44,155 nt of DNA from assembly GCF_016743215.1 (NCBI RefSeq), contig NZ_VRZC01000009.1:1-44155 (forward strand), read 5' to 3'. The translations under genes and the position numbers were made by a program. Positions 5,888-31,063 of this stretch are shown in pieces. This DNA is from Geminocystis sp. GBBB08. Its GTDB lineage: Bacteria > Cyanobacteriota > Cyanobacteriia > Cyanobacteriales > Cyanobacteriaceae. Position 1 is the first letter of the stretch; each line of letters begins with the position of its first letter. Below the pieces are notes generated by a model, which was not told the DNA's origin, did not search any database, and worked only from the letters and a program-made list of their open reading frames with translations.

Positions 5888-6781
5888 ATGGATCGACTTG
5901 CTTGTATGCAGAGTTTTGTTAGAGCGGTTGAATTAAATAGTTTTTCTGCTGTAGCACGAGAACAACAGACGACGCAACCAACTATTAGTAAACAAATTGT
6001 TGCCCTAGAAAAATATTTAGGAGTACAATTACTGATTCGTTCTACTACGAATTTATGTTTAACGGAAGAGGGCAAAATATATTATCAATACTGTCAGCAA
6101 ATTTTGGAAACTGTTACCGAAGCTGAAGCGAATTTAAGAGGAAAAGAGGAAGCCAAAGGTACTTTACGAATAGGTTGTTCTGTTCTTTTTGGACAAATGC
6201 AGATTGTACCCAGATTAAATACTTTTATCAAATATTATCCTGATCTCAAAATCAATTTGGTGATGGCAGATCATTTTGTGAATATGGTGGAACAAGGTTT
6301 AGATGTTTTAATCCGTATTGGCGATCGCCAAGATAATTCTCTGATTAGTCATCATATTGGCACTACTCATCGTATAACGATAGCAACAAAAGACTATTTT
6401 GATCAAGCAGGTGAACCACAAACTCCTGAAGATTTAGTTAATCATCACTGTATTGTTTATAGTAATCTAGCAACAGGAAATGAGTGGCATTTTCAAGGAA
6501 AAGACGGATTAATTAAAGTACAAGTTGCAGGATATTTTCAAACTGATAGTTCTATCGCTATTCGATCAGCAATTTTATCAGGTTTAGGTATTGCCGTTGC
6601 ACCGGTATGGATGTTTGGTGATAAAATTTATGAAAATGATCTTCAAATTGTGTTACAAGATTATCCTCCTACATCATTTCCTATTAATGCCGTTTATCGT
6701 CGTAGTCGTTTTTATCCTGCTAAAATCAATTGTTTTATTAATTTTTTAAAGTCAGAATTTAAACTTGATCCTTGGGTTTAA
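5888..6781 (+). CDS. LysR-family transcriptional regulator
   Basis: 297 aa, normal length for the family. The N-terminal winged helix-turn-helix is clear: FVRAVELNSFSAVAREQ, then TQPTISKQIVALEKYLGVQL. The co-inducer-binding domain follows from about residue 90 (GTLRIGCSVLFGQMQIVPRL). The arrangement resembles the CrgA/AaeR-like subgroup. The ATG at 5888 is the only good start, with GAGG about 14 nt upstream. It probably controls the divergent 5772-3886 operon and possibly the deaminase. The ligand is unknown. The stop is followed after one base by the deaminase remnant. Confidence 0.9.
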   Translation: MDRLACMQSFVRAVELNSFSAVAREQQTTQPTISKQIVALEKYLGVQLLIRSTTNLCLTEEGKIYYQYCQQILETVTEAEANLRGKEEAKGTLRIGCSVLFGQMQIVPRLNTFIKYYPDLKINLVMADHFVNMVEQGLDVLIRIGDRQDNSLISHHIGTTHRITIATKDYFDQAGEPQTPEDLVNHHCIVYSNLATGNEWHFQGKDGLIKVQVAGYFQTDSSIAIRSAILSGLGIAVAPVWMFGDKIYENDLQIVLQDYPPTSFPINAVYRRSRFYPAKINCFINFLKSEFKLDPWV

Positions 6782-7029: not shown

Positions 7030-7416
7030 TTACCATAAAATTCTGATATTATAAAAATTAAAAGTGCTATCATTAGTTAAGATTGTCATAGTTTCCTGTT
7101 GAGTTTGAGCGATTAACATTCGATCAAAAGGATCTTTATGATGTAAAGGTAAAGCAGAAGCTAACAGTGCATGACTAGGAGTAATGGATAAAGCTAAGAT
7201 TCCATCTATTTGCATTTGTTGAGGAATCAGAATTTCTGGAGGTTGGGGTAAATTTAATTTACTGCCCTTGAATTTAATTCCGATTTCCCAAATACTTGCT
7301 ACAGATAACCATAGTTCATTTTTATCATTAGTAATGGCTTCTATTGCCGTCTCGCTCAATTTTTCAGGCTCAACTAACCACCATAACCAACAGTGAGTAT
7401 CTAGCAATAATTTCAA
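7030..7416 (-). CDS. PIN-domain ribonuclease toxin (VapC-like)
   Basis: 128 aa PIN domain. The acidic active-site residues are all visible: D6 (LLLDTH), E44 (SIWEIGIK), D98 (HKDPFDRML) and D116 (LTNDSTF). The family cleaves RNA, often tRNA, when released from its antitoxin. Its start overlaps the antitoxin stop by 4 bp (ATGA type), the classic toxin-antitoxin arrangement. It appears intact. It sits just downstream of the guanidine ABC transporter genes on the same strand but after a 90-bp gap, so it probably has its own promoter. Confidence 0.9.
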   Translation of the reverse strand: MKLLLDTHCWLWWLVEPEKLSETAIEAITNDKNELWLSVASIWEIGIKFKGSKLNLPQPPEILIPQQMQIDGILALSITPSHALLASALPLHHKDPFDRMLIAQTQQETMTILTNDSTFNFYNIRILW

Positions 7417-7655
7417 CTTTCTTCCTCTTCAAACAAATTAATTAATTCTTCATCAGTATGAAAAAAATCCTCTGATACGGTAAATTTTCCTCGTAAACGT
7501 CCAGCAATACGTTTGGGAAGGAGAGATTCGGTATAGGGAGTTAAATAGGCTACGGGTTTTCCCCGATTGGCAATGATAATTTTTTCTCCTTTTTCTACCC
7601 TTGATAGTAATTGAGAAAGTTGTGTTTTTGCTTGGTGGATATTGACAATATTCAT
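7413..7655 (-). CDS. Phd/YefM-family antitoxin
   Basis: 80 aa. The N-terminal DNA-binding fold is typical of Phd antitoxins: NIHQAKTQLSQLLSRVEKGE, then IIANRGKPVAYL. The acidic C-terminal tail (TDEELINLFEEEES) is the usual toxin-neutralising segment. It precedes and overlaps the PIN toxin by 4 bp. The family usually autoregulates its own operon by binding the promoter; no operator was identified here. ATG at 7653-7655. Confidence 0.88.
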   Translation of the reverse strand: MNIVNIHQAKTQLSQLLSRVEKGEKIIIANRGKPVAYLTPYTESLLPKRIAGRLRGKFTVSEDFFHTDEELINLFEEEES

Positions 7656-7745: not shown

Positions 7746-8522
7746 TCAAGCCACCATAGTTAAGGCTTCTTTACCATGTAAACGCATTAATTCCATTAAC
7801 TCATCACGATAGTCATGGAATTGGCTATGACGCTTGACATGAGCAGTTCTTTCAGGTAAATTAATTGTCATTTCTTTTCTTACAGTACCCGGACGAGCAC
7901 CTAAAGCATAGATACGATTAGATAAAAATACCGCTTCTTCCACATCGTGGGTAATCATGAAGATAGTTAAATTGGTGCGTTGCCACAAATCTAACATAAA
8001 TTCGTGCATAGATTCTTTAGTATGAATATCCAATGCCCCAAAAGGTTCATCCATTAGTAATACTTTAGGTTCTGATGTTAATGCACGAGCGATCGCCACT
8101 CGTTGTTTCATACCTCCTGATAATTCTTTAGGTAAGGATTTAGCAAAATTAGTTAAACCGACTACACTTAAATAATAACTAGCTTTTTCTTTACGTTCTT
8201 TTTTTGATATTCCTTGTAATTTCAAACCAAATTCTGTGTTTTCTTGTACATTTAACCAAGGATAAAGAGTATAATGTTGAAACACCATACCTCGATCAGG
8301 TCCTGGTGCTGTAATGGTTTTTCCATCAATTCTTACCTCTCCAAAACAAGGTTTATCTAATCCAGCTATTTGACGTAATAAGGTAGATTTACCTGAACCT
8401 GAAGCTCCTACTGCACAAATAAATTCTTCTTGTACGATAGTCATATTAATATCTTTTAAAACAGCTAATTTGCCATTTTTTGTCTCAAAATTTTTATGTA
8501 AATTACTAACTTGTAAAAACAT
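7746..8522 (-). CDS. ABC transporter ATP-binding subunit of the guanidine operon
   Basis: 258 aa ATPase of the nitrate/sulfonate/taurine (NrtD/SsuB/TauB) class. It has Walker A (GASGSGKST), a Q-loop (MVFQHYTLYPW), the signature LSGGMKQR, Walker B (VLLMDEPFGALD) and the switch His (ITHDVEEA). I chose the ATG at 8522 because GGAG lies about 9 nt upstream; an in-frame TTG at 8537 overlaps that ribosome-binding site. It is the last gene of the riboswitch-led operon and energises the permease encoded just upstream. Synechocystis has the same order of an ABC transporter beside its guanidine hydrolase; guanidine as the substrate is inferred from this context. Confidence 0.93.
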   Translation of the reverse strand: MFLQVSNLHKNFETKNGKLAVLKDINMTIVQEEFICAVGASGSGKSTLLRQIAGLDKPCFGEVRIDGKTITAPGPDRGMVFQHYTLYPWLNVQENTEFGLKLQGISKKERKEKASYYLSVVGLTNFAKSLPKELSGGMKQRVAIARALTSEPKVLLMDEPFGALDIHTKESMHEFMLDLWQRTNLTIFMITHDVEEAVFLSNRIYALGARPGTVRKEMTINLPERTAHVKRHSQFHDYRDELMELMRLHGKEALTMVA

Positions 8523-8560: not shown

Positions 8561-9394
8561 TTAACGTTTTTGACTAGCCCAATTACAGGATACTCTTAAT
8601 AGATATTGAAAGAATAAATCTAAAGATAAACCGATAATGCCAATGACAATTAAACCCACAAAAATTTCATCAGTGCGTAAAAATCTTCCAGCGACACTGA
8701 TACGCCTTCCTAAACCTTCGGTGGATGCTATCAACTCAGACACAATCACTAACTGCCATGCAGCGGCTAAATTAATACGACAAGCATCAAGAATACCGGG
8801 TAAAGAATGAGGAAATATCACTTGAGTTAAAATTTGCCAAGGATTACCACCTAAAATATACGTTGATTCGATCAGGTCTTTTGATACAAATTTTACAGTA
8901 TCCATAACCATTAACGCATTAAAGAAAAATACACCTATAAATATAAGAGTGATTTTCGGTTCTTCTCCAATGCCAAGGTATAGTATGAGAAGGGGAATAA
9001 AGGCGGGTGCTGGCATATAACGCATTAAACCAAATAGAGGTTCAAATAATGCTCTGATACTGGCAAAACTCCCCATTAAAATACCGATAGGAATAGCGAA
9101 TAAGGCGGCGAAGAAAAAGCCAAATCCCACTCTCCATAAACTAGCTATGGTATCTTTAACTAAGTCGCCACTTTTCCATAACCTTACAAAAGCCTGGAAT
9201 ACGTTAGCAGGAGATGGTAAAAATTTCGGATCAATATTGCCTATCGTCGTCACTAACCACCATAATATTAACGGGAGTGCGATCGAGGAAATGGTTAGGC
9301 TAATATATAGAGGTTTGGGTATGTCTTCCGATAAGCGCCAAAAACCATTAAGTATATTTGCTTTGCTTTTTTCCATGTTTTTGGTTATCATCAT
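8561..9394 (-). CDS. ABC transporter permease of the guanidine operon
   Basis: About 277 aa, BPD_transp_1 fold of the SsuC/TauC/NrtB class with about six membrane helices. The EAA loop is visible as ESTYILGGNPWQILTQVIFP, followed by LPGILDACRINLAAAW. The start is uncertain. The longest frame begins with TTG at 9427, but ATGs at 9394, 9391 and 9376 are more plausible; I use 9394. There are 38 bp between this gene and the ATPase. It forms the membrane channel for the substrate delivered by the lipoprotein encoded upstream. Confidence 0.9.
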   Translation of the reverse strand: MMITKNMEKSKANILNGFWRLSEDIPKPLYISLTISSIALPLILWWLVTTIGNIDPKFLPSPANVFQAFVRLWKSGDLVKDTIASLWRVGFGFFFAALFAIPIGILMGSFASIRALFEPLFGLMRYMPAPAFIPLLILYLGIGEEPKITLIFIGVFFFNALMVMDTVKFVSKDLIESTYILGGNPWQILTQVIFPHSLPGILDACRINLAAAWQLVIVSELIASTEGLGRRISVAGRFLRTDEIFVGLIVIGIIGLSLDLFFQYLLRVSCNWASQKR

Positions 9395-9570: not shown

Positions 9571-10626
9571 TTAACTTTTAGTTTTGTTCTTTTCTGCGTA
9601 GGCTTTGATAAATCGATCGTCAAAAATTTTGCTAATATCTGCTGGTTGAGTTGCTAAACCTACATCTACCAAAAATTTGCTCATTTCTTGGGCAGAAAAA
9701 TAAAGAGATTTTCTATCATTACCCTCCTTAAATGCTTCTAAGTTTTCCTCGATTGTAAATAACTTTGTACCTCCTGCATATTCTTTATATTCATCAACGG
9801 AAACTCCTGCCCGTTTTGCCATAATTTCATTAGCTTTATCTGGATTTTGTTTGATATAGTCTAAAGTGGCGAACCAACTATCTACCATTGCCTGTACCTT
9901 TTCGGGGTTTTCTTCTACAAATTTACGAGTGAAAACAAGATGATCAGATATTGAACCAGGAAAGTCTTTTGAGCTAAATAACTCTTTACTATTAGGGCGA
10001 GTTAAGGCTTGAGTGGTAAAGGGTGCAAACACAGCTACAGCATCAACTTGACCTGCTACAAAAGCGGCGGCGGCTGAACCGGTTTCCAGTGGTACAAATT
10101 CAATGTCTTCTGGTTTTAAACCTGCTTCTTTCATCCCTAAAAGTAAAAGAAAATGATCTACTGTGCCTTCTTCGGCGGCTACTTTTTTGCCTTTCAAATC
10201 TTGAACTGTATTAATACCTTCACTGACGATGATTTTATCGTTACCTGTGGAGTTATCATTAACTAACACGATAACTTGATCTGCACCTCCGGCGATCGAG
10301 TTTACTGTATCCCCAAGGGTTTGACTGTTGGCGTCAATTTGTTGAGCATTTAAAGTACTAATGGATTCGAGATAGCCATCAAACCACTTAAGATCCACCT
10401 TGACATTATTTTGATCAAAAATACCTTGATCATTTGCTACTTGCCAAGGAAACCAACCAGGCCAAGCACTAAAACCCAGTCTGACTGCCGTTTCAGTGGA
10501 AGTGTTTGGAGTTGTTGGGGTTTCTGTGTTAGTCTGAATATTTGATGCGGGGTTAGAACAAGCTACACTTAAGCTAACAGTTGCCAAGAATATGACAATA
10601 TATGATAAAAGTGATCGTCGTTTCAT
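9571..10626 (-). CDS. Substrate-binding lipoprotein of the guanidine-operon ABC transporter
   Basis: 351 aa. The N-terminus is a lipoprotein signal (MKRR, a hydrophobic run, then lipobox LSVAC with the Cys near residue 23), followed by a Thr/Asn-rich linker. The mature domain is an SsuA/NMT1-like periplasmic-binding fold: VRLGFSAWPGWFPWQVA, DLKGKKVAAEEGT, then VAGQVDAVAVFAP. The same family serves nitrate, sulfonate, taurine and cyanate uptake, so the family alone does not define the ligand. Its place behind a guanidine riboswitch and gdmH makes guanidine the likely cargo (inference). It is separated from ghaB by 84 bp containing a GGGCTTAAGCCC palindrome (10658-10669). Confidence 0.9.
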   Translation of the reverse strand: MKRRSLLSYIVIFLATVSLSVACSNPASNIQTNTETPTTPNTSTETAVRLGFSAWPGWFPWQVANDQGIFDQNNVKVDLKWFDGYLESISTLNAQQIDANSQTLGDTVNSIAGGADQVIVLVNDNSTGNDKIIVSEGINTVQDLKGKKVAAEEGTVDHFLLLLGMKEAGLKPEDIEFVPLETGSAAAAFVAGQVDAVAVFAPFTTQALTRPNSKELFSSKDFPGSISDHLVFTRKFVEENPEKVQAMVDSWFATLDYIKQNPDKANEIMAKRAGVSVDEYKEYAGGTKLFTIEENLEAFKEGNDRKSLYFSAQEMSKFLVDVGLATQPADISKIFDDRFIKAYAEKNKTKS

Positions 10627-10710: not shown

Positions 10711-11418
10711 TTAAATAGCGATAAGTTCTGATTTTTGAAGATTTTTGCGATCATTAACCTGATTTTTGACCCAAGTAAACCATTCATCTAACCCCATTTC
10801 TGTCTTACTAGATACAGGAATAATAATTACATCAGGATTCATCTGTCTGACGTTATTAATTAGTTTTTTGAGGTCAAAATCTAAGTAGGGGGCTAAATCC
10901 ATCTTAGTGATGAGCAAACAATCAGCTTCTTGAAACATAATGGGATATTTAAGAGGTTTGTCTTCTCCTTCGGTGATGCTCAAGAGTGCTACTTTTGCGT
11001 GTTCGCCTACTTCAAATTCTGCTGGACAAACTAAGTTACCAACGTTTTCTACCCACACCAGATCGAACTGTGAGGGATCATATTTAGCGACTAATTGATG
11101 AATACCCCCTGATACCATCTTGGAGTCTAAATGACATGATCGACCCGTATTAATGGCGATAACAGGTACATTATGAAGGCGTAATCGATCGGCATCTAAT
11201 TCGGTAGTCATATCTCCTTCAATGACTGCCATTTTTAACTCTTGATTAAGATGAGCGAGGGTTTTTTCTAACAGGGCGGTTTTACCTGCCCCTGGGCTAC
11301 TCATGAGGTTAAAACAAGTAATACCCCATTCGTCAAAGTGCGATCGATTGTGATCAGCACCGGCTTGATTGGCGTGGAGTAGGTTAATTTCTAAAGCGGC
11401 ATCGAATGTTTGGTGCAT
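10711..11418 (-). CDS. ghaB: HypB-like GTPase, nickel-insertion factor for guanidine hydrolase
   Basis: 235 aa HypB-family metallochaperone GTPase. It has a P-loop (SSPGAGKT, about 40-47), GDMTTELD, a Cys-His metal site (GRSCHLD), the [12 protein letters not shown] motif and a TKMD guanine-specificity motif. It lacks a long N-terminal poly-His tail. I chose ATG 11418 ([14 protein letters not shown]); the frame extends upstream to 11472, but that part (MWALPTLQK) is not HypB-like. It is the counterpart of Synechocystis Sll1079 (GhaB), which loads nickel into GdmH. Adjacent ghaA is broken, so the state of its partnership is uncertain. Confidence 0.92.
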
Positions 11419-11527: not shown

Positions 11528-11884
11528 TCAAGAAATAGTAGAATACTCAAGTCGATCGATCTTTAACTCTCTACCTGAGCGAATATCATCCATAGGAGAA
11601 TGACACTGAGGGCAGGAATACTGTAAACCGATTTGGGGCTTGTATTCTTCTTGGCAATGATGACAATAGGCAACTAAGGGAACTTCTTTAATAGCTAAGG
11701 TTGCTCCCTCAAGGAAAGTGTTGCGGGTTTGCACCTCAAAGGCAAATTCTAAAGAAGCAGGTTCAACACAGGTAAACTCCCCTACAATTAATTGAACTTT
11801 TTACATTTTGTAGGGTTGGGGTTGAGAGTCATACCAGTCTTTTACTGTTATAATGAGAGCCTTTGTCATATCCGTTTCGTGCAT
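11528..11884 (-). pseudogene. ghaA: HypA-like nickel metallochaperone gene with an in-frame stop at codon 28
   Basis: The frame from ATG 11884 gives a 118-aa HypA-type protein starting MHETDMTKALIITVKDWYD, with the Ni-binding MHE motif, and continuing after the stop with KVQLIVGEFTCVEPASLEF. A zinc ribbon follows (CHHC and CPQC). Codon 28 is TAA (11801-11803), with no frameshift on either side, so one base change (for example from CAA) explains it. The only downstream in-frame start is GTG 11734, which would leave 68 aa without the nickel site. The ATG at 11884 lies 9 nt after the preceding coiled-coil gene. It is the counterpart of Synechocystis Sll1078 (GhaA). Either a recent nonsense mutation or a sequencing error. 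Confidence 0.85.
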
Positions 11885-11893
11885 GATAGGAGT

Positions 11894-12133
11894 TTAACTT
11901 TTTTCTAAATTTTCAATTCGACGAGTGAGTTGTAACAACCTTTCTTCATAGTCAATCTGCTTGATTTCATGGGTAATGTGAAGATTGAGTAATTGTTCTA
12001 AGGCTTTATTTAGTTTCAACTGTTCGTCATGGAGTTTGATTTGAGACTCCTGTAATTTTAATTGAGACTCCTGTAAGCCTCTTTGTACAGCTAACATCCC
12101 TTCGATGGTATTTTGAATGTCCTCTATATTCAT
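11894..12133 (-). CDS. Small coiled-coil protein, copy 2 (79 aa), in the guanidine operon
   Basis: 79 aa, almost entirely alpha-helical heptads rich in Leu, Gln, Glu and Lys. It starts MNIEDIQNTIEGMLAVQRGL and ends RIENLEKS. It is nearly identical to the 72-aa gene just upstream, but carries one extra heptad (about LKLQESQ), so the repeat zone QESQLKL has expanded by exactly 21 bp. There is no signal peptide, membrane segment or metal motif. It sits between gdmH and ghaA on the riboswitch-controlled transcript, so it should be made when guanidine is present. The family and function are not recognised. Confidence 0.7.
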   Translation of the reverse strand: MNIEDIQNTIEGMLAVQRGLQESQLKLQESQIKLHDEQLKLNKALEQLLNLHITHEIKQIDYEERLLQLTRRIENLEKS

Positions 12134-12174
12134 AGTCTTAATCTAATATTTGATCATTCTTAAGATATAAGAGT

Positions 12175-12393
12175 TTAACTTTTTTCTAAATTTTCAATTC
12201 GGCGAGTAAGTTGTAACAACCTTTCTTCATAGTCAATGTGCTTTATCTCATGGGTAATATGGAGATTGAGTAATTGCTCTAAGGCTTGATTTAGTTTCAA
12301 CTGTTCTTCATGGAGTTTTAATTGAGATTCTTGTAAGCCTCTTTGCACAGCTAACATCCCCTCGATGGTATTTTGAATGTCCTCTATATTCAT
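12175..12393 (-). CDS. Small coiled-coil protein, copy 1 (72 aa), in the guanidine operon
   Basis: 72 aa paralogue of the next gene, with the same start (MNIEDIQNTIEGML) and end. The two differ by one heptad and a few substitutions (H/Q, R/R, E/D), pointing to a recent tandem duplication; 41 bp separates them. The predicted structure is a single parallel or antiparallel coiled coil with a breaking LNLHITHEI segment near residues 41-50. It lies 168 bp after gdmH; that gap contains a GGGGGGATAAAGGGGGG-type tract (about 12531-12546). Possibly a scaffold or oligomerisation partner of the guanidine enzymes (speculation). Confidence 0.7.
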   Translation of the reverse strand: MNIEDIQNTIEGMLAVQRGLQESQLKLHEEQLKLNQALEQLLNLHITHEIKHIDYEERLLQLTRRIENLEKS

Positions 12394-12561
12394 ATTTTCT
12401 CAACCTTAATTTGTGATTAATTATTAGGATAATCTATGACTCAAGTTGTTAGTAAGAAAGCAGAATATAAAAGATTGTCAAAAAATACAGGAAAAATTAA
12501 CCTTTGCGCCTTTGCTGTCTTCCCTATTAGGGGGGATAAAGGGGGGTTGCGAGAGAAAAAA

Positions 12562-13719
12562 CTAACTCCAAGGCTCATCAACTACTTGGGCTTCTTCATG
12601 GATATAGTCAGGTTTCTCTTTGCGAGGTAATTGCCCAGAAACCACTAAATGAGCCATAGTATCGCAAATAACACGGGTTGCCATTAAAGAAGTCATATCA
12701 CTGACATCATAGGGAGGAGAAACTTCCACTATCTCAATACCGCAAACTGTCGTATTTTGGACAATTTTCTTAAGCAGGTATAAAGCCTCACGAGGTAATA
12801 AGCCTCCTGGTTCGGGCCATCCCGTGCCGGGTACAAATCCTGCATCTATACAGTCAATATCAAAGCTAATCCAGACGCAATCAGTACCATCTGTTGCTTT
12901 TTCGATGGCAAAATCGGCAGCCGCATCTAAGCCCATTTCCATAATGTCGGTAACGGTAAGGATATTAGTAGCCCTTTCACGGCATACCTTAACCCCCTGA
13001 CGTGGCACTTGCCAACCGCCTATGCCTAGTTGTACAAGATTTTTTGCTGGTGCGTTTGCCATATTAGTAGCATGAAACCAAGGACAAGTGTGCATTCTTT
13101 CGTCTAAGTCTGTCTCTTGAGTGTCCACATGGCGATCGAAATGAATGATTCCCACCTTTTTATCCCCTAAATGACGACAAATCCCCCTGACAGTGGGAAA
13201 ACCAATAGAATGATCACCCCCCAATATAATAGGAAATGCTCCTGACTTGAAGATATGAGCAATACCTTTAGAGATTTGATCAAAAGATTTTTCATTGTTA
13301 GCAGGAATAGTAAATATATCGCCCACGTCACAGAGTTTAATTTGTTCCCTTAAATCCACTCCCAACTCGAAATTATAGGGAGTATATAAGGCACTGATAC
13401 GGCGGATACCTTGAGGGCCAAATCTTGTACCGGGGCGGTAAGTAGTACCAGAGTCATGAGGTACACCGACGATCGCCACATCATAATTTCCAACCTTATT
13501 GACATCTTCTATATAAGGGGCTTTTAAAAATGTGTTAATACCTGCATAGTGGGGCAATTCTCCTCGGGAGAAAGTGGAAATAGTGCGATCTTTGATACTA
13601 TCGGCCGCTTCGAGTCCATATTTTAAACCGTCTTGAACTTCCTGTTGCCACCCCGTCAATGATAGTTGAGTCTCCTTTTCGAGGGCTTTTTGCGCTTCGC
13701 TTTCTGGTTGATTACTCAT
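12562..13719 (-). CDS. gdmH: Nickel-dependent guanidine hydrolase
   Basis: 385 aa arginase/agmatinase-fold enzyme that hydrolyses guanidine to urea and ammonia. Dinuclear metal ligands are visible: H170 (GGDHS), D195/H197/D199 (HFDRHVDT) and D287/D289 (SFDIDCID). The long N-terminal extension (about 70 aa before the core) and the FDRHVDT wording match Synechocystis Sll1077 (GdmH) rather than agmatinases. The start ATG 13719 is set by AGGAG at 13728-13732, 8 nt upstream; a longer frame to 13770 overlaps the riboswitch hairpin. The guanidine-I riboswitch, HypA/HypB-like nickel chaperones and ABC transporter in the same operon support the call. It may be annotated in databases as agmatinase or SpeB. 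Confidence 0.95.
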   Translation of the reverse strand: MSNQPESEAQKALEKETQLSLTGWQQEVQDGLKYGLEAADSIKDRTISTFSRGELPHYAGINTFLKAPYIEDVNKVGNYDVAIVGVPHDSGTTYRPGTRFGPQGIRRISALYTPYNFELGVDLREQIKLCDVGDIFTIPANNEKSFDQISKGIAHIFKSGAFPIILGGDHSIGFPTVRGICRHLGDKKVGIIHFDRHVDTQETDLDERMHTCPWFHATNMANAPAKNLVQLGIGGWQVPRQGVKVCRERATNILTVTDIMEMGLDAAADFAIEKATDGTDCVWISFDIDCIDAGFVPGTGWPEPGGLLPREALYLLKKIVQNTTVCGIEIVEVSPPYDVSDMTSLMATRVICDTMAHLVVSGQLPRKEKPDYIHEEAQVVDEPWS

Positions 13720-13742: not shown

Positions 13743-13890
13743 ATGACAAAGCCCAGAAGGGTGACAGCATTTACCATCACTTCCTCCCGGGCTTTTCTCC
13801 CTCCGTGTAGCTACTATTTTTCTTCAAATTCTTAGTAGCTCGTCTCTCTCGGACCTGTCATGTTTTCACATCGGAACCCTAGAAACCTTC
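13743..13890 (-). promoter_or_regulatory. Guanidine-I (ykkC) riboswitch
   Basis: Read on the minus strand, the leader holds the conserved blocks of the ykkC/guanidine-I aptamer in order: CTAGGGTTCCG (13872-13882), GGTCCGAGAGAGAC (about 13838-13851), ACGGAGGGAGAAAAGCCCGGG (about 13786-13806). A variable stem (GAGCTACT, then AGTAGCTA) lies between the last two. The class switches genes on when guanidine binds. It lies directly before gdmH and after an NtcA promoter. The identification rests on motif wording and gene context; a covariance search would confirm it. Confidence 0.93.
13751..13792 (-). terminator. Riboswitch expression-platform hairpin
   Basis: GCCCGGGAGG pairs with CCTTCTGGGC (10 bp with two G-U pairs), and an inner GTGA/TCAC adds 4 bp. 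The stem is followed by TTTGTCATT, a weak U-tract. Its 5' arm is the conserved 3' strand of the aptamer, so guanidine binding would block the hairpin and allow read-through into gdmH. Confidence 0.7.
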
Positions 13891-13915
13891 TTTAATTGCT
13901 TTTAATTTTGGATTT

Positions 13916-16853: not shown

Positions 16854-17099
16854 TATAACAATCCTAAATGATTCGTGGCAAAATAAGGAAGAACTACAAA
16901 TTTATATCAAGTTCGGATGATTACTTATAATAAAAATTTGCGAACTTCTTTGCGTCTTGGCGCCTTTGCGTGAAATATTACTATAACTATTTAATCGAAC
17001 CTGATATTAAAGGCAAGAGGTTTAAACCCCTTGTTGAATAATAGGTAAAACATTATTTCCTATCTTTAAATATTTCACAACTGATTTAGTATTGCTATA
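16854..17099. mobile_element. MITE-like element, copy interrupted by a second element
   Basis: The ends read TATAACAATCCTAAATGATT and, in reverse complement, TATAGCAATACTAAATCAGT. Without the insertion at 16905-17006 it is about 141 bp and matches the copy at 30927-31063 in inverted orientation, including the AAGAGGTTTAAACCCCTTG core and the TAATAGGTAAAACATTA segment. It has no coding capacity. It fills most of the 397-bp gap between folC and the DUF3155 gene. Confidence 0.85.
16905..17006. mobile_element. Small ~102-bp element nested inside the MITE
   Basis: The ends are inverted: TATCAAGTTCGG on the left, and TATCAGGTTCG as the reverse complement of the right. It is flanked by TTA on both sides (16902-16904 and 17007-17009), where the uninterrupted copy has a single TTA, indicating a 3-bp target duplication. 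The interior carries TTTGCGTCTTGGCGCCTTTG. Degenerate relatives lie near 9464 and 29338. Confidence 0.8.
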
Positions 17100-30926: not shown

Positions 30927-31063
30927 TATAGCAATCCTAAATCAGTTATGAAATATTTAAAGATAGGAAATAATGTTTTACCTATTATTCAACAAGGGGT
31001 TTAAACCCCTTGCCTTTAAATTTGTAGTCCTTATTTTGCTACGAATCATTTAGGATTGCTATA
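30927..31063. mobile_element. Complete 137-bp MITE-like element
   Basis: Terminal inverted repeats TATAGCAATCCTAAAT at both ends. The core contains the perfect 20-bp palindrome CAAGGGGTTTAAACCCCTTG (30993-31012). It matches 16854-17099 in inverted orientation. It has no ORF. Confidence 0.85.

Follow-up and report, generated by a model that had tools for sequence, protein, structure and literature searches.

The window analysed here, 44,155 nucleotides from Geminocystis sp. GBBB08, carries on its minus strand a guanidine operon in the order Guanidine-I riboswitch, gdmH, two tandem small ORFs, ghaA, ghaB and the genes of an ABC transporter (Table 1). All genes of the operon are open except ghaA. 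The encoded GdmH matches the solved structures 7ESR and 7OI1 over its full length (E 9e-243, residues 4-384). It thus combines close full-length similarity to Synechocystis GdmH with control by a guanidine riboswitch, the two properties by which we recognise this enzyme.

Table 1. Coordinates of the guanidine operon and of the sequence features in and around ghaA (window positions).
Feature	Position	Strand	Remarks
Guanidine-I riboswitch (RF00442)	13782..13893	-	upstream of gdmH; 81.8 bits
gdmH, Ni-dependent guanidine hydrolase	12562..13719	-	open; frame also readable from ATG 13770
Small coiled-coil-like ORF, duplicated in tandem (MNIEDIQNTIEGML...)	ORFs 11894..12393; duplication 11886-12394	-	between gdmH and ghaA
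ghaA, HypA-type nickel chaperone gene	11528..11884	-	interrupted; frame start ATG 11884, natural stop TGA 11530..11528
In-frame TAA, ghaA codon 28	11801..11803	-	translation from ATG 11884
8-bp inverted repeat CCCTACAA/TTGTAGGG	11780..11815		stop and changed codons lie in its 20-base loop
Remaining frame downstream of the stop, beginning at GTG 11734, the first common start codon	11528..11734	-	68 codons covering residues 51-118; zinc-finger part alone
ghaB, HypB-type GTPase	10711..11418	-	open
ABC substrate-binding protein	9571..10626	-	SsuA family
ABC permease	8561..9391	-	ortholog in G002, G003, G068, G045
ABC ATPase	7746..8522	-	ortholog in G002, G003, G068, G045

The overall architecture is reminiscent of the guanidine operon of Synechocystis sp. 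PCC 6803 (gdmH sll1077, HypA/HypB homologues, transporter sll1080-1082), with which the window shares the enzyme, the chaperone pair, the ABC transporter and the riboswitch class (PMC8390497). The window differs in its interrupted ghaA and in the tandem small ORFs that separate this gene from gdmH. Our sample of the genus comprises five genomes, the source genome included. Two of them (G002 and G003) carry a gdmH operon with the same gene order and protein identities of 85-98%; no gdmH was found in the remaining two. Unlike in the window, ghaA is intact in G002 and G003, at the equivalent place, and between gdmH and ghaA both have a single small-ORF copy together with a glutathione-S-transferase-like gene, the latter absent from the window. 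The duplicated unit in the window measures about 270 bp, its copies are 86-91% identical, and the small ORF gave no family match. The transporter end of the operon adjoins a PIN-domain toxin and Phd/YefM antitoxin pair (VapBC-like; 7030-7655), and a LysR-type regulator is encoded close by on the plus strand (5888-6781).

Read from its ATG, ghaA spells MHETDMTKALIITVKDWYDSQPQPYKM, a stop, and then KVQLIVGEFTCVEPASLEFAFEVQTRN..., with the TAA as the sole internal stop. The original prediction had placed this stop at codon 28 of a HypA-like frame, and translation together with the Pfam and NCBIfam matches bears out its position, its codon number and the identity of the gene. When the stop is read through, the product matches Pfam HypA with 106.3 bits (positions 1-111 of 112) and TIGR00100 hypA with 126.9 bits (cut-off 88.1; 1-114 of 116), and retains H2, E3 and the zinc cysteines C74, C77, C91 and C94 in two CxxC motifs. 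The combination of profile match, Met1-His2-Glu3 and two CxxC motifs that marks the HypA family is found only across the stop, and the TAA denies the gene a single open frame from Met1 to its end. His2 and Glu3 of HypA bind nickel and are required (PMC3287977); as had been predicted, the stop cuts this nickel site off, and it thereby parts it from the zinc-finger part. A chance frame can be excluded, since G002 and G003 hold an intact ghaA at the same place. The wording around the stop, described beforehand as perfectly family-like, falls slightly short of that: M27 and Q31 occur in 0 of 87 orthologues and are the only residues of the window's ghaA unseen there. No conserved gene of the window other than ghaA was found to be interrupted; apart from the small ORFs beside ghaA, further long stretches lacking a 100-codon frame are confined to the riboswitch leader and a single intergenic stretch that contains a repeat.

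Translation from the ATG would give a 27-residue peptide that has Met1-His2-Glu3 and lacks the rest of the fold and the zinc finger, so that no working GhaA is expected from the interrupted gene. Read-through of the stop, which had been suggested, or a downstream restart could in principle still yield one, and the frame beyond the stop is indeed conserved. However, TAA ends most of the window genes checked, a stop at codon 28 is absent from all orthologs, and RNA folding around the stop was no better than that of shuffled sequences, leaving read-through unsupported; we found neither a stop kept in relatives nor TAA used as a sense codon. A restart at GTG 11734, ahead of which no clear ribosome site was found, would produce a protein without residues 1-50. 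Homologues that naturally begin at this GTG had been proposed as a refutation, but in all 75 ghaA genes adjacent to a named gdmH locus the alignment begins at residue 1. The start was judged from these loci and from order-wide matches, and not from the set of 89 ghaA sequences, which had been chosen by the motif MHETDM and whose Met1-His2-Glu3 conservation is therefore uninformative. Taken together, a working GhaA arising by either route is highly improbable.

The comparison with close genomes that the original prediction had called for shows where the window departs from its relatives. In the seven nearest, codon 28 is GAT or GAC (Asp) in the context I-D-K-V-H, whereas the window reads M-stop-K-V-Q. 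Codon 28 differs by two bases and codons 27 and 31 by one each, which places three base changes within four positions and the fourth nine bases further on. CAA, put forward as an example of a sense codon at this position, is found in 3 of 90 sequences of a wider set and is an unlikely ancestor here: because the intact relatives carry Asp, two bases away from TAA, a one-base error in CAA does not explain the stop. The clustering of the changes in codons 27-31 is suggestive, although not significant alone (p 0.06-0.11).

These changes bear directly on the suspicion of a sequencing or assembly error. In its simplest form, a single wrong base, this is unlikely; a local artefact of sequencing, consensus or assembly, with ghaA intact in the organism, retains some weight. 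The source assembly is a draft of 325 contigs, the changes are grouped inside the loop of the inverted repeat, and the remainder of ghaA shows family-typical changes only. The pattern itself is unlike the usual single-base or homopolymer error, however, and real mutation is favoured because a multi-base change across codons 27, 28 and 31 does not come from one base-call error. Generally error-prone sequence is disfavoured as well, since no other conserved gene is broken in the operon or anywhere in the 44 kb. We therefore regard an artefact as unlikely, and the TAA as probably a genuine, recent nonsense mutation that lies within a short run of changes and inactivates ghaA. The inverted repeat is present in G002 and absent in G003. 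Template switching at this repeat, which was considered as a source of the changes, would account for two of them at most, as judged by eye; it is speculative and was set aside.

How long ago ghaA broke was approached with a branch model written for the purpose, in which omega was estimated on the window branch. The values for gdmH (0.034), ghaB (0.069) and the transporter genes (0.03-0.05) show that these are under purifying selection. For ghaA, omega is 1.2-1.4 compared with about 0.055 elsewhere (p 0.001-0.005) and falls to 0.6-0.7 once the last codons are also masked (p 0.03-0.06); it is statistically not different from 1. Likewise, 8 of the 13 changed codons in ghaA are non-synonymous, against 41 of 202 in the neighbouring genes. 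A branch omega near 1 fits a longer decay better than a recent break, and these figures would suit an older pseudogene that has been drifting through much of the period after the divergence from G002, GhaA having been dispensed with.

The nature of the changes argues otherwise. Within codons 1-116, those outside 27-31 are M12I, I68V, E84Q, K93Q and C116T, and each of the five target residues is present at least 7 times among the 87 orthologues. A random change would land on a residue that common in 8% of cases, and on any residue ever seen in 27%; the threshold of 7 was chosen after the data had been seen, and even with the most permissive cut-off five such hits would have a probability of about 0.27 to the fifth, or 0.0015. 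Since the outside changes reach residues that are common and tolerated in orthologues, ghaA appears to have been selected for most of the window branch, with the disabling changes local and the break recent (or a local artefact) rather than the result of long decay. The gene has one stop and no frameshift, although its omega is near 1, and has kept His2, Glu3 and the zinc cysteines. Neutral decay, as read from omega alone, was dropped after this check of orthologue residues, and we give the older pseudogene only a slim chance.

A survey of the order covered 389 genomes, 149 of which have a listed GhaA-type match (identity at least 54%). Clear disruptions number 4 among these 149 matches (the source genome, G258, G203 and G067), a count that leaves out two partial matches, in G014 and G213. 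As in the window, ghaA is broken within the gdmH operon in the other three, but at different sites: by a TAA at codon 81 in G258, a Pleurocapsa MAG, by a frameshift and a lost ATG in G067, and by a TAG at codon 18 in G203. In G258 and G067 gdmH remains open, whereas in G203 gdmH and ghaB are damaged as well. The breaks in G258 and G067 are rare and independent, and count in favour of a real mutation. Against it stands the fact that every disrupted ghaA, the window's included, sits in a fragmented draft assembly, as an artefact would also have it. The retrieved DNA of 80 named GdmH loci contains ghaA in 75 cases, one of them with a stop (L087, the G258 contig). Stops flagged in ghaA of G124 and G227 proved to be natural end codons. 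The whole operon of G203 is decaying (L076 1745-3628), with gdmH lacking its middle part and containing a stop and ghaB split; this genome also holds a second HypA and a hydrogenase. In G014 (C161:15259-15501) the GhaA-type match is limited to residues 35-115 in an open frame of 92 codons, possibly a truncated ghaA.

If GhaA is lost, nickel may be supplied by another HypA, and a second hypA had been proposed as something to look for. A search of the source assembly, with all candidates scored, found only ghaA; a match on C44 belongs to a rubredoxin-like gene that is conserved across the genus and is not HypA. The assembly does hold HoxH, on C93, and a hydrogenase-type HypB, on C9, and the syntenic site for hypA falls into an assembly gap: in G002 the hydrogenase hypA adjoins the hydrogenase-type hypB, and in the source genome C9 ends just beyond hypB, in a repeat, while C93 ends within a gene on the far side. 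The repeat of about 100 bp that ends C9 (L041 4401-4501) occurs in at least 15 further near-full copies across the genome, one of them in the window (window coordinates 30970-31063 and 16854-17056), and probably broke the assembly beside hypB. A size filter does not account for the gap, contigs down to 682 bp being present. For the missing 2.26 kb of the hydrogenase region, the best 40 candidates scored gave two short matches only. Because both other genomes of the genus with HoxH carry a hydrogenase-type hypA, such a gene likely lies in the gap between C9 and C93, as judged from synteny. G003 has GdmH and GhaA without a hydrogenase.

The consequences for GdmH depend on how far it needs its own chaperone. 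The necessity of GhaA for nickel loading, assumed in the original prediction, agrees with its presence in 145 of 149 GdmH genomes, but a strict need is weakened by several observations. The single-contig genome G020 (98% complete) encodes GdmH (C1:1985783-1986928) without HypA, HypB above the cut-off or a NiFe hydrogenase, which makes it a candidate for a chaperone-free GdmH and suggests that GhaA may not be strictly indispensable. Neither G067 nor G258 has another HypA beside its broken ghaA, and G067 also lacks HypB above the cut-off. In the literature, activation of GdmH is said to require GhaAB (PMC11271267), and metformin hydrolase required HypAB in one study (PMC11399263); in another, chaperones made no difference in extracts, and a chaperone knock-out could not grow (PMC11271267). 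Expression of sll1077 without its gha genes gives guanidine degradation in Synechococcus 7942 (PMC8390497), a host that has a HypA according to the S. elongatus control of our HypA search. Comammox bacteria have no such nickel chaperones (PMC11410670). The GdmH-type guanidinase of comammox Nitrospira and that of G020 thus resemble each other in that no HypA-type chaperone was found; there the chaperone genes are wholly absent, whereas in the window ghaB is intact and ghaA only interrupted. In hydrogenase work, loss of HypA or HypB is partly overcome by nickel (PMC3287977). The second HypA/HypB pair of Synechocystis does not serve the hydrogenase (PMC4517062); for the reverse direction, hydrogenase HypA/HypB serving GdmH in Synechocystis, we found no test in the literature.

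We infer that GdmH would be loaded with nickel less efficiently, by way of a hydrogenase-type HypA that may be encoded in the gap, GhaB alone or free nickel, and that the guanidine pathway is most likely weakened, not abolished. That GdmH is active here without any HypA-type protein, GhaB alone or free nickel sufficing, seems improbable; if true, GdmH could do without the HypA member of its nickel-loading pair.

The most likely account of the break is an unremarkable nonsense mutation of recent date in an accessory gene for enzyme maturation. If real, it represents a natural ghaA knock-out within an otherwise maintained operon, and the window would form, together with G020, G067 and G258, a small set of genomes for testing how strongly GdmH relies on the nickel chaperone of its own operon. 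A further lesson is that annotated gdmH and ghaB need not imply a complete maturation system.
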